A DNA stretch of 64,000 nucleotides, taken from assembly GCF_030068605.1 (NCBI RefSeq), contig NZ_JASJOU010000013.1:62001-126000 (forward strand), given 5' to 3'. Origin of the DNA: Xanthocytophaga agilis (lineage in GTDB: Bacteria; Bacteroidota; Bacteroidia; Cytophagales; 172606-1). Numbering within the stretch: position 1 is the stretch's first letter; every line of letters begins with the position of its first letter. The notes under the pieces are model-generated. The model was not told the origin of the DNA. It searched no databases and was given only the letters and a program-made list of their open reading frames with translations. Shown here one piece after another: positions 9,828 to 63,297 of this stretch. The translations under genes and the position numbers were made by a program.

Positions 9828-9878
9828 ACAGGTTTATTCTGCCTTTGCATTCGGGCAAGAATAAACCTGTATTTTTTG
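9828..9878 (+). terminator. Strong rho-independent terminator
   Basis: Arms ACAGGTTTATTCT (9828-9840) and AGAATAAACCTGT (9858-9870), with an inner TGCC/GGCA pairing, are followed directly by ATTTTTTG. It closes the lipoprotein transcript and lies upstream of the true start of the DoxX-like gene. Confidence 0.9.
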
Positions 9879-9967
9879 TCGCAAACTACCCTTTAAAATG
9901 CCGTAAGAGCACCCCATCAAAGTGGCAGGGATTCGCTTACTTTGTATTAATCAAAAACAATACGGAC

Positions 9968-10414
9968 ATGAAAACAACCAAACGAATTTACTGGACAGCC
10001 ACTGTGATTTTATTTTTACTGGAAGGACTTATGCCTGCCTTAACGTCTCATACCCAACTGGCCGTAGAAGGTATCCGGCATCTGGGCTATCCGGATTACT
10101 TCAGGGTGATGTTAACCATATTTAAAGTAGCAGGAGCCTTGGCACTGGTGTTGCCGTTTGTGAAAGGTAATGTAAAAGAATGGGCGTATGCCGGATTTGG
10201 ATTTACACTCATCAGTGCCTGTGTTAGTCACTGGGCAGTAGATGGCTTTACTGGACAAACTATATTTCCATTAGTAGTATTCGCTATCCTGGTAGTATCC
10301 TATAAATCGTATCATAAACTTGTGGCATTTGCTAAACAGGATGCGTCAACACAAGGGATGGAATCCAATACAGCCCAACCCAATGAATTGATAGTATCAG
10401 GTGCATCCCGCTAA
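9968..10414 (+). CDS. DoxX-like small membrane protein
   Basis: 148 residues with four hydrophobic helices (about 8-22, 46-64, 70-88, 94-112) and the DoxX-family pattern GYPDYFRVMLTIFKVAGALALVLP. Such proteins are inner-membrane subunits of uncertain biochemistry, in some bacteria linked to redox or thiol metabolism. The frame extends back to 9845, but that region overlaps a terminator stem. The ATG at 9968 (MKTTKRIYW) begins exactly at the family N-terminus. The C-terminal 30 residues are polar. It is monocistronic and convergent with the MocR-type gene; the gap holds the longest repeat array of the window. Confidence 0.85.
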   Translation: MKTTKRIYWTATVILFLLEGLMPALTSHTQLAVEGIRHLGYPDYFRVMLTIFKVAGALALVLPFVKGNVKEWAYAGFGFTLISACVSHWAVDGFTGQTIFPLVVFAILVVSYKSYHKLVAFAKQDASTQGMESNTAQPNELIVSGASR

Positions 10415-10508
10415 TCCTGTTGGTAAGATAATTATATAGCCTGATTCGAATTCTGTTCAAACACATCTAACAAAAGTTGAGACAGGTTTATCAGTTGGAA
10501 ATAAAAAA

Positions 10509-10750
10509 TGATCAGTATCCGAATCAGTTTTGCGTTTGACCAGAATACCGATCACTTTCAAGAAATATTCGAATAATGGTCATTTTCTTGTTTGACCTGA
10601 ATTTAGTTCAAACTTGTGTTTGACTGGAGTTCCGGTCAGATCAGAGAAATATCAAAACACCGATCACACTTCAGGAATATCACTATTTCGATCACTTTTT
10701 AAAATAATCGAAATAGTGATAGTTTTTTATTTTGATCAGAACACCGATAA
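10509..10750. repeat. 28-bp-period array of 18-bp quasi-palindromes, locus 2 (nine units)
   Basis: Units begin at 10509, 10537, 10565, 10593, 10621, 10649, 10677, 10705 and 10733, each 28 bp from the last. Examples are TGACCAGAATACCGATCA (10537), TGACTGGAGTTCCGGTCA (10621), ATATCAAAACACCGATCA (10649) and TGATCAGAACACCGATAA (10733). Spacers are 10 bp and mostly AT-rich. Unit 10621 is almost a perfect palindrome. Units 7 and 8 together form a 15-bp perfect inverted repeat (TATCACTATTTCGAT at 10678-10692, its complement at 10707-10721) followed by TTTTTT, which could act as a terminator for the convergent flanking genes. Confidence 0.85.
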
Positions 10751-10777
10751 TACCTATTTGAGATTCCAGAACTATCC

Positions 10778-12208
10778 TTATTGGTGATTCGCTATCAGTT
10801 CTTTTGCCAGTTGTCCTAATGTCTTTAAAGCCTGTTCAGTTTGCTCACTAGTTACAGAGCCACAGCTTAATCTTAGAAAGTGTGAGTGTACCATGCCTGT
10901 CGAAAACAAATGTCCGGGAGTGAATCCAATCCCTTGCTGTAAGGCAACTTTATACAGCTCCATTGAAGAAACTTTCTCAGGTAGCTCTATCCATACTACA
11001 TACCCTCCCTGCGGATGAGAGATACTGGTCCCTTCTGGAAAATACGCTTCTACAGCAGCTTGTACTTCTGTCATTTGCAGAAACAGTTTACTTCGCATTC
11101 GTTTCAGATGTCGCTCAAAACTACCGGCTTCCAGTAAACGGGCTATAACCAGTTGGGCCACTGTCGTAGCAGCAATATTAGTCATAAACTTAAGGCGTTC
11201 AATAGACTGACGAAAACGCCCTCCTGCCACCCAGCCTACCCGAAGTCCGGGAGCCAGCGTTTTGGAAAAAGAAGAACACACAATCACCCAGTCTTCTTTA
11301 TCGTACATTTTCAGAGAGGTAGGCCGCGTGCCTTGAAAATACAGCTCACCATAAATATCATCTTCAATCAGAGGTACCTGGTAACGGGTAGTCAGTGCAA
11401 CCAACTCTTTCTTATTTGACTCAGACATCAAAGAGCCGGTAGGATTACTGAAGTTTGGAGTGACAATACATGCTTTAACAGGATATTGTTTGTACACATC
11501 TTCCAGATAATTCAGATCGATACCTGTCTGAGCATGCGATGGAATTTCAATAACCTGTAATCGCAGTCCCTGTATAGCTTCCAGAAACCCATAGTAACAA
11601 GGAGATTCAACCGCTACGATATCTCCCTGTTGTGCAGTAGCCCGTAAAGCAAGGTGAATTGCCTCCAGACATCCTGACGTAACACAAATATCTTTGGCAG
11701 TAAGCATTCCACCCCAACCCAGAGATCGTTTGGCAATCTCGTTTCGTAAATGATCATTGCCCTGAAGCTGGGTATAATTCATTACTTCATATTCATCTAT
11801 ACGAAGCACCTCCAGCATATTCCGTTTCAGAATCTTACCAGGAATCAGATGATTACCAGGTATAGCCCGCGAAAAAGAAACCACTTCCCTGATAAACCGT
11901 TCCTGCATGATTGTCTCCAGCAAAGAGTCAATTACTACAGATTCCGGTTTTAGAGCCGGAATCACCTGAGAAGGTACTTGTTCTTTGTTACGTCTCCTAC
12001 CACTGACATAATATCCGGACTTCTTCTGTGCCACTATCAATCCTCGGTCTTCCAGATGGTGATAAGCTTCCAGTACTGTTGATATACTGATTCCCTGCTC
12101 TTCATGTACACTACGTACGGAAGGTAGCTTCTCCCCTGCTTTATACGTTCCATTTTCAATATGTTCTTCTATTCGTTGTGCAATCTGTAAATAAAGATAA
12201 TTGGCCAT
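10778..12208 (-). CDS. MocR/PdxR-type regulator (GntR HTH fused to class-I aminotransferase fold)
   Basis: 476 residues. A GntR winged helix (about 1-70; LYLQIAQRIEEHIENGTYKA, GYYVSGRR) is fused to a fold-type-I PLP domain (about 110-470). PLP-site residues are visible: the PNFSNPTG segment around 251-258, EDDIYGE around 282-288, and the Schiff-base Lys316 in CSSFSKTLAPGLRVGW. MocR regulators bind PLP as effector and commonly control an adjacent divergent gene. Here the divergent neighbours are a DJ-1/PfpI protein and a PLP-dependent decarboxylase, which are plausible targets through the 135-bp intergenic region. The domain may be regulatory rather than catalytic. Confidence 0.92.
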   Translation of the reverse strand: MANYLYLQIAQRIEEHIENGTYKAGEKLPSVRSVHEEQGISISTVLEAYHHLEDRGLIVAQKKSGYYVSGRRRNKEQVPSQVIPALKPESVVIDSLLETIMQERFIREVVSFSRAIPGNHLIPGKILKRNMLEVLRIDEYEVMNYTQLQGNDHLRNEIAKRSLGWGGMLTAKDICVTSGCLEAIHLALRATAQQGDIVAVESPCYYGFLEAIQGLRLQVIEIPSHAQTGIDLNYLEDVYKQYPVKACIVTPNFSNPTGSLMSESNKKELVALTTRYQVPLIEDDIYGELYFQGTRPTSLKMYDKEDWVIVCSSFSKTLAPGLRVGWVAGGRFRQSIERLKFMTNIAATTVAQLVIARLLEAGSFERHLKRMRSKLFLQMTEVQAAVEAYFPEGTSISHPQGGYVVWIELPEKVSSMELYKVALQQGIGFTPGHLFSTGMVHSHFLRLSCGSVTSEQTEQALKTLGQLAKELIANHQ

Positions 12209-46578: not shown

Positions 46579-46619
46579 ATATCGAAAATGTTCGATATAC
46601 TATACATTTTATAGTATAT
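46579..46619 (-). promoter_or_regulatory. Overlapping operator-like inverted repeats before the nitroreductase
   Basis: ATATCGAA-aatg-TTCGATAT (46579-46598) and ATATACTATA-cattt-TATAGTATAT (46595-46619), both perfect. They are 44-84 bp upstream of the ATG at 46535, in the expected promoter zone. Confidence 0.6.
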
Positions 46620-46725
46620 TCCTAAATAATATTAGAAAAGCGCTATTATTTGTAAAGAGTTCTCTTTAGTAGAGTGTATCGTGGGTAAAGGCAGCTTGCG
46701 GTTATATCAGAGCGAAGTAGTAAAT

Positions 46726-46776
46726 ATAAACCCAATGCTGATTTCACTAAGATAGTGAAATCAGCATTGGGTTTAT
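46726..46776. repeat. Perfect 24-bp inverted repeat
   Basis: Arms 46726-46749 (begins ATAAACCCAATGCTGATTTC) and 46753-46776, separated by AGA. No T-run follows. It sits between the nitroreductase promoter and the locus-3 repeat array. Confidence 0.9.
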
Positions 46777-46855
46777 GGTTAAGCTATCTAATCAGAATTC
46801 CAATAAAAGTTTTGGTTAATTCTGACAGAGCAGAATGCTCTCCAAAAATAAAAAA

Positions 46856-46957
46856 TCAACTGTATTTCAATCAATTTCAGGAAATATCAGCATTCTGATT
46901 AACCCTCTGGCTTATCAAAATTCTGATAATAATCAGCTATTACCAGAATTTTGATAT
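46856..46957. repeat. 28-bp-period array of 18-bp quasi-palindromes, locus 3
   Basis: Units at 46856, 46884, 46912 and 46940: TCAACTGTATTTCAATCA, ATATCAGCATTCTGATTA, TTATCAAAATTCTGATAA and TTACCAGAATTTTGATAT. Spacers are 10 bp. A further unit, AATCAGAATTCCAATAAA, lies at 46790, out of phase by 10 bp. The third unit shares the 15-mer ATCAAAATTCTGATA with locus 4 (63104). Confidence 0.75.
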
Positions 46958-47038
46958 TTCCAATGTACAACCAAAACCCAGGTTGCTATTACTTTGGTTC
47001 TCTATAAGCAAAATACTATTATAAAAACGATATATCTA

Positions 47039-47281
47039 TTAGTATGTATTATCGTCTATAGATGGCTTATCTGTATTTCGGTTGGGATGCAGCACCCGTA
47101 CGTTTGCACCTGGTTCATCCGGGCCATCGGTATACTTTTCCCGCATCTCCTCATGTTGTTCCGGATTGTCCAGATCTAATACCGGTTTGCTTCCTGCTTT
47201 ACTTCTACCCTCTCCAGATGGTGAACCTTTTTTAAGTGGAGAATCATTCCTGTTGGGCCCTTTTACTCGATTCTGACTCAT
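47039..47281 (-). CDS. Small hydrophilic protein, unknown
   Basis: 80 residues, highly polar, with a basic N-terminus (MSQNRVKGPNRNDSPLKKGS) and an acidic middle (DLDNPEQHEEMREKYTDGPD). It is probably intrinsically disordered and cytosolic. No family is recognised with certainty. An overlapping plus-strand frame is judged a shadow because it is Ser/Pro-rich and lacks a start context. It lies 90 bp downstream of the baeRF-like gene on the same strand, with a terminator between them. Confidence 0.6.
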   Translation of the reverse strand: MSQNRVKGPNRNDSPLKKGSPSGEGRSKAGSKPVLDLDNPEQHEEMREKYTDGPDEPGANVRVLHPNRNTDKPSIDDNTY

Positions 47282-63101: not shown

Positions 63102-63297
63102 ACATCAAAATTCTGATATCTCAGTTACATGATCAGTATTCCGATATTTTGAAAAATTGACCATTATTCAAATAGTTGTACAAAATGACCGGAGTTTAGG
63201 TCAACTACAAAAGTGACTTAAACTCTGGTCAAATCAAATGTTGATTAGCAGATTGACAAGCGTGTTGTCTGTGTAAGCCTGACCATAATTCCGATAT
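63102..63297. repeat. 28-bp-period array of 18-bp quasi-palindromes, locus 4
   Basis: Units at 63102, 63130, 63158, 63186 and 63214, a weak one at 63242, then one at 63280 (38 bp on, i.e. 28 plus 10). Examples are TGATCAGTATTCCGATAT (63130), TGACCGGAGTTTAGGTCA (63186), TGACTTAAACTCTGGTCA (63214) and TGACCATAATTCCGATAT (63280). Units 63186 and 63214 are imperfect inverse complements of each other. The array lies between the phosphohexomutase start and the histidine-kinase stop. Confidence 0.82.

Follow-up and report, generated by a model that had tools for sequence, protein, structure and literature searches.

The 64,000-nucleotide stretch of Xanthocytophaga agilis DNA analysed here (the window) contains a phased array of short palindrome-like units, which we call array A, between two convergent genes; the open reading frames (ORFs) on its two sides end at 10414 on the plus strand and 10778 on the minus strand. 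The stop codon of the upstream ORF (9845–10414, plus strand) faces the array, while the downstream ORF (10778–12208, minus strand), presumably a regulator of the GntR/aminotransferase type, encodes a product 97% identical to its ortholog in Xanthocytophaga flavus, of which the host is a sister species. Lag analysis placed nine 18-bp units in the long arm of the array (10509–10750, plus strand), with starts at 10509 + 28n for n = 0 to 8 and 10-bp spacers, exactly as a preliminary description of this DNA had it. An isolated tenth unit, box 0 (10442–10459, plus strand), lies 27 bp past the upstream stop codon and 67 bp before unit 1, the two being separated by a 49-bp gap (10460–10508, plus strand). 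Units 7 and 8 form an 18-10-18 inverted repeat with a T run behind it (10677–10728, plus strand); the repeat matches at 16 of 18 positions and the run reads TTTTTT, in agreement with the terminator-like hairpin described previously, and a terminator for the plus-strand gene is plausible here. The units vary in sequence, and array A does not show the CRISPR arrangement of conserved repeats with variable spacers.

The periodicity of array A exceeds that of its controls. Identity at lag 28 reached 0.543 in the best 140-bp window of the intergenic region (10415–10777), against a mean of 0.324 and a maximum of 0.421 in 1,000 dinucleotide shuffles; the best of all lags from 15 to 59 rose to at most 0.45 in 200 shuffles. 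In 138 intergenic regions without an array, each 250 bp or longer and taken from contig C1 and the window, lag-28 identity averaged 0.342 and peaked at 0.471, so that scores as high as that of array A, which the preliminary description had said would count against it, appeared neither in shuffled sequence nor in ordinary intergenic DNA. Lag 28 was the best lag between 20 and 40 in 10 of these 138 regions; in 18 array-bearing regions the mean was 0.472, and the best lag was 27–29 in 17 of them. Across the whole window, lags 28 and 140 tied for the top of the range 10–199, followed by 84, 56 and 112.

Array A is one of four in the window, as previously claimed: a profile built from arrays A and D picks up two more, B and C. 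Scored by strand, the four-unit profile gave 59 to 85 for A and D and 44 to 58 for B and C, with −6 at the best other place. Array C (905–1034) has five units between convergent ORFs and is found also in the sister species. Array B (46789–46957, plus strand) consists of a box (46789–46806), a 49-bp gap and four units; at the corresponding place in the sister (window 46600–47060 against about 69000–69500 of G001:C9), array-like sequence with other half-site words can be made out by eye. Array D (63102–63297, minus strand) has five units and a box (63280–63297), and is much shorter in the sister. A long near-perfect hairpin, probably a terminator, adjoins array B at 46725–46775.

Arrays of this type are dispersed through the host genome (G000; 9.77 Mb in 66 contigs) and that of its closest relative, a sister species (G001), in which array A is present at the same location with 95% identity. 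Searching G000 with array A by BLAST gave at least 62 matches at E ≤ 10 (the best 40 of 112 candidates were scored); many extend over its first 138 bases, and identity reaches 91–96% in the best of the short matches, indicating that the copies are paralogs rather than products of chance convergence. Within 700 kb of C1, a chain finder located 17 arrays of at least three units, or 14 once arms were merged across the gap, which extrapolates to roughly 200 arrays per genome. Their density is uneven, as positions 1–228000 of C1 hold no array and all 14 merged arrays fall in the 470 kb that follow. C1 and the window together gave 30 chains scoring at least 12, against none in reversed sequence; profile and BLAST searches thus return many loci, and not the noise-level handful that would have spoken against the preliminary description.

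Two arrays were found directly before near-identical genes for small helix-turn-helix (HTH) proteins. A search with the small HTH protein returned 39 matches (18 in G000, 18 in G001 and 3 in G002, all three genomes belonging to the genus), 23 of them paralogs at E ≤ 1e-20: 12 in G000, 11 in G001 and none elsewhere among the three. An upstream array scoring at least 16 is present in 21 of these 23, its end 31–65 bp from the start codon in 20 and 111 bp in one; the remaining two have weak upstream arrays, scoring 10.6 and 11.1, and two more distant paralogs (about 43% identity) have no upstream array. As a control, 764 kb of reversed sequence gave no array scoring 12 or more, with a narrower set of spacings. 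The gene-linked arrays reach up to 13 units at one pitch, and array A is homologous to one of them, that of the clade-1 gene C1:507562 (L172; 110 bp, 72%, E 2e-8).

The HTH protein is about 75–80 amino acids long and consists of a DNA-binding domain only. Compared with 18 PDB sequences, its profile matches the 434 repressor, SinR, P22 c2, Stl and an ICEBs1 regulator; Pfam HTH_3 scored above its cut-off for two clade-1 proteins and below it for one clade-3 protein. In a sample of 390 genomes from the order, matches to the family at E ≤ 1e-9 were confined to G000 and G001. The arrays have a similarly narrow range: they occur in two of the three genus genomes searched (G000 and G001), and BLAST found neither arrays nor close HTH relatives in G002, the third, which is 72% complete. 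Among the matches listed for array A, 37 of 39 relatives and 6 of 8 family genomes had none; word-free pair analysis of 200 kb of G004 and 30 kb of G003 gave no 28-bp peak, and array A DNA had no match in a phage collection. The HTH genes sit in repeated modules. One such locus (L207, G000:C8:282000-297000) carries domains of a tyrosine recombinase, HTH_17, a ResIII helicase and a BT4734/VapE primase; four others (L205, L210, L211 and L212) have ORFs similar to those of the integrated element L207, in which alone the domains were checked. Small HTH genes with arrays appear to lie in or beside such repeated integrated elements.

What the arrays share is geometry and not wording: half-site words vary from array to array, whereas 18-bp units at 28 bp (27–29) are constant. 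Among 427 intervals measured in 85 arrays with half-word models, 363 were of 28 bp, 55 of 29 and 9 of 27, the finder applying no penalty for 28 and a small one for 26, 27, 29 and 30. The exact 28-bp period claimed previously thus stands for the nine-unit arm of array A but not across the family, where 27 and 29 also occur. Outlying units, counted at offsets of 31–140 from array ends, lie most often at 67 bp (41), 66 (22), 95 (19) and 39 (12), and the family geometry includes one irregular gap of 39 or about 67 bp (28n + 11); since 39 is 28 + 11 and 67 is 56 + 11, this gap amounts to one extra helical turn. Similar distances emerged with a simple mask, TG-N5-RR-YY-N5-CA, that matches 240 sites in C1 and 121 in reversed C1: the commonest distance between sites was 28 (13 pairs), then 57, 152, 29, 56, 85, 95, 124 and 180, with two pairs at 67, and no distance was counted more than once in reversed C1. 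The two halves of one unit agree at 2.36 of five variable positions, against 2.39–2.80 when the halves are taken from different units of one array, at most five units apart, and 2.08 for the whole-set background. Neighbouring units are inverted repeats (at least 15 of 18) in 42 of 504 pairs, and paralogous copies of an array keep the same unit order. The gap of array A is 98% identical to that of one other copy (L024), and its length is near constant among copies (48–50 bp). Judged from the arrays of clade-1 genes, it is made up of 21 bp, an 18-bp unit slot and 10 bp; all five HTH arrays of clade 1 carry a unit in that slot, at an interval of 39. We had considered the gap as unique cargo, and rejected this because gaps are alike within subfamilies and because of those five filled slots.

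Half-site words differ between protein clades. Arrays of the VAQGNLSS clade use TGAC, TGAA, TGAT and ATAT; those of the [LI][GN]QSNIS clade use mostly TGCG and TGCC and some TGAT/TGAC, two members (L194 and L195) being degenerate; the QWEF clade has TAAC and CAAC, and the MGQGNISK clade TGAA. Array A has words of the TGA and ATA types. Over 14 representatives, protein divergence tracks half-site words with a Mantel r of 0.81, a value matched in none of 10,000 permutations. Such a correlation is expected under direct binding but does not prove it, as gene and array travel together, and it may also come from their shared descent. Of 576 units, 58 are clear A–C hybrids mixing two half-word classes, which is unexpected for a simple homodimer.

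Few arrays have an HTH gene beside them. Of 72 arrays, 18 of which came from C1 and the window and 54 from BLAST-selected loci, at least three are gene-linked (C1:507186, L123 and L143); array A and most others are solo, at roughly 15 solo arrays per HTH gene copy. Relative to ORFs of at least 100 amino acids, which overlap 4 of the 72, 29 arrays lie in convergent, 33 in co-directional and 10 in divergent settings, compared with 19, 79 and 40 of the 138 array-free regions; convergent settings are commoner (p = 2.6e-5) and divergent ones rarer (p = 0.017). Solo arrays therefore tend to avoid promoters, unlike operators. The gene on the box side, taken from ORFs of at least 70 amino acids, points toward the array in 34 cases and away in 28.

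To follow these arrays between species, 34 of the 72 loci were paired, most G001 loci having been chosen for array hits; six pairs were dropped as too rearranged and 28 used. Substitutions numbered 88 in 1,748 frame positions, 147 in 2,194 word positions, 146 in 1,653 spacer positions and 65 in 1,261 gap positions, so that units changed less than spacers (235/3,942 against 146/1,653, p = 1.5e-4). Whole arrays diverged by 6.9% and 6.0%, other intergenic DNA by 5.7% and 8.0% and fourfold sites by 13–16%; strong selection on solo copies is not evident, since arrays diverge like ordinary intergenic DNA. Small indels in units and spacers occurred at 0.54 times the rate of intergenic flanks (p = 0.036), a deficit that lost significance in the 15 cleanest alignments; a second, overlapping count gave 2 in 1,944 array bases and 218 in 33,687 other intergenic bases. 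Among 11 indels longer than 12 bp in units and spacers, 9 were of 26–29 bp. Ten arrays had been chosen independently of sister hits (4 from the window, 6 from the C1/C3 overlap), and all ten have a counterpart in the sister, which is array-like sequence or, for two, only a like length by alignment. The contrast of strict geometry with loose sequence, from which the preliminary description had argued for selection on geometry, is thus real; as evidence for ongoing selection on spacing the small-indel deficit is weak.

We consider it probable that array A represents, in solo form, the multi-site operator array that belongs to a family of small cI/434-type HTH proteins specific to the genus, at least some of them carried by integrated mobile elements. 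What we observe is a dispersed family, its geometry, the linkage of arrays to HTH genes and the correlation of words with proteins; because arrays of the same type stand directly before the HTH genes, array A is most likely a landing strip for their products. This accords with one reading in the preliminary description, a protein laid along DNA, to which the arrays upstream of 21 of 23 paralogs and the 11-bp, one-turn increment in the irregular spacing now give substance. Each 18-bp unit would comprise two inverted 9-bp half-sites, TG-N5-AA, and bind one HTH dimer; the 28-bp pitch (2.67 turns), with 11 bp added at the irregular interval, would hold neighbouring dimers in a fixed helical relation, which may allow them to load cooperatively. 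Before an HTH gene such an array would serve autoregulation, whereas the solo arrays may bind the same proteins near the ends of host genes, mostly as decoy or roadblock sites. A bolder version, in which roughly 200 phased arrays, many of them at gene ends, let repressors of mobile elements regulate or structure the host chromosome as a stoperator, insulator or tethering network, with HTH proteins and half-site vocabulary co-evolving and heterodimers reading hybrid units, is a speculation that we think rather unlikely to hold.

The strongest competitor, confined to the solo arrays and compatible with binding at the gene-linked ones, holds that these are inert relics: fragments of an array and HTH module that were duplicated or remained behind, are tolerated where genes end and are now decaying, with the 28-bp order surviving because substitutions outnumber indels and slippage adds or removes whole units. 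An intergenic rate of divergence, large indels mostly of 26–29 bp, a unit order common to paralogous copies and the under-use of divergent regions all fit this account, and we regard it as a real possibility, if somewhat short of an even chance. It sits less well with the slower change of units than of spacers, the deficit of small indels and the sister counterparts at ten of ten arrays, and for solo arrays we weigh sites that are bound but passive, or act as roadblocks, slightly above it. The other reading in the preliminary description was an RNA with a repeated hairpin: a transcribed 3′ region whose hairpins end or stabilise the upstream message. Array A does fold well as RNA (z = −4.7, with none of 200 shuffles as stable), a convergent location would suit such a role, and the terminator-like stem of units 7 and 8 is kept in the sister, where its 15 bp are unchanged and the differences fall in the loop and at the outermost bases of unit 8. 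Yet in 17 paralogous copies, in which unit 3 is near invariant and unit 1 drifts, covariation in the unit 1:3 helix was 0.107 against 0.109 in shuffles; hairpins within units gave 3 pairs with two-sided changes against 3.5 in shuffles (one of the three helices being two columns out of register), those within units 1 and 2 showed no covariation, and the match between two halves is no closer within a unit than across units. The mixed orientation of box-side genes speaks against it too, as does the terminal hairpin with T run, which by eye is not general among arrays. With covariation equal to that of shuffles and none within units 1 and 2, RNA is unlikely to be the selected form, and we hold this explanation for the arrays to be improbable; units 7 and 8 of array A may well end transcription all the same. 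Rfam gave no match at gathering scores in the window, and its three E-value matches in array A are miRNA models far below their cut-offs.

Two further explanations draw on mobile DNA. Being extragenic, palindromic, dispersed and enriched between convergent genes, the arrays could be repeats of the REP/BIME type spread by a REP-associated tyrosine transposase (RAYT), and RAYT-like genes do exist here: the NF047646 model scored 64.4 bits, below its cut-off of 80, and RAYT-like matches number 7 in G000 and 9 in G001. (A Y1_Tnp domain search of G000 gave no match, though RAYT-like ORFs occur there.) Six matches, whole or broken, are near HTH genes: G001:C5:200717 is separated from one by 19 bp, and the other five are at about 7–9 kb. 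Of 16 RAYT loci examined, several of which overlap, four have an array within 1.5 kb (L255, L256, L258 and L261; L258 is unbroken, the other three broken or partial). The remaining 12 have none within that distance, including two of the three unbroken full-length copies (L252 and L254), and the array beside the third (L258) belongs to an adjacent HTH gene. A GTAG-type foot beside a palindrome is the REP motif; the array units have no GTAG foot, their consensus words starting with TG, ATA or TA, and a GTAG-footed palindrome inside the L258 RAYT gene (G001:C5), GTAGGGGCGA...TCGCCCCTAC, is the better REP candidate. An origin of the arrays as RAYT-spread repeats seems improbable. The motif GTAGGGGCG is absent from the window, and a further RAYT-like gene lies at L212:1598–2209. 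Finally, a partition-like system, in which chromosomal arrays would pair an element with the host nucleoid, has the layout in its favour, a small DNA-binding protein with repeats before its own gene, as in StbA and the stbDRs of plasmid R388 (PMC3098194). The only element checked by domains, with its tyrosine recombinase, looks integrated instead, and we give partition hardly any credence.

Classical cI-type switches have about three operators. The cI, 434 and P22 c2 repressors resemble the present system in protein family, by profile, and in having sites directly upstream of a repressor-like gene, an HTH_3-type gene lying directly beside the sites in the same 21 of 23 paralogs; the arrays differ in having up to 13 units at one pitch and a protein reduced to its DNA-binding domain. 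We place nearest to them the stoperators of cluster A mycobacteriophages (L5 and TipsytheTRex), then tandem cI-type operators, StbA-stbDRs and REP/BIME. Stoperators are many repressor sites scattered over short intergenic stretches and proposed to halt elongation (PMC9283540), just as the arrays here are putative sites in such stretches, and a location outside promoters (29 of 72 convergent) fits. Stoperator sites are 13-bp, asymmetric, bound by monomers, oriented with transcription and located in the phage genome (PMC9283540); our arrays are phased units of two half-sites on the host chromosome with no clear orientation, the 34 genes toward and 28 away (ORFs of at least 70 amino acids) showing no stoperator-like tie to transcription. 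StbA is a small DNA-binding protein whose own promoter is surrounded by repeats, these being 9-bp direct repeats at 2-bp spacing on a plasmid (PMC3098194), unlike the inverted half-sites at 28 bp that are scattered over chromosomes here. REP/BIME are likewise dispersed extragenic palindromes in regular mosaics (PMC2817692), from which the arrays are set apart by different unit words, the link to an HTH gene and the 12 of 16 RAYT loci with no array within 1.5 kb. A partial survey of the literature on Xanthocytophaga, on tandem arrays of palindromes in Bacteroidetes, on repeats of REP type at convergent genes and on the operator arrays of integrative elements brought up no comparable array.

The known action of phage-type repressors is at a handful of operators belonging to their own element; here, arrays of the kind found before repressor-like genes are scattered, in strict helical register, over a very large number of host loci. 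Should they be bound, the arrays would offer a natural system for relating spacing to cooperative loading, for the co-evolution of operator words with recognition helices and for the effect of genome-wide foreign operators on a host. Identity to the HTH protein is 33–46% for the best 10 of 31 records of phage relatives, among which are repressors annotated in Rhizobium phage RR1-B and Rhodobacter phage RcapMu; the annotated relatives are about 240 amino acids long, in contrast to the bare DNA-binding domain of the HTH protein. The surroundings of three phage and two viral-contig relatives were examined with a palindrome comb of little discriminating power: on three known arrays it put lag 28 first for one, third for another and not among the best for the last. 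Upstream of the repressor of Rhizobium phage RR1-B (L250) it picked out four palindromic sites at lag 47, scoring 25/36 against 19.9 (s.d. 0.9) in shuffles.
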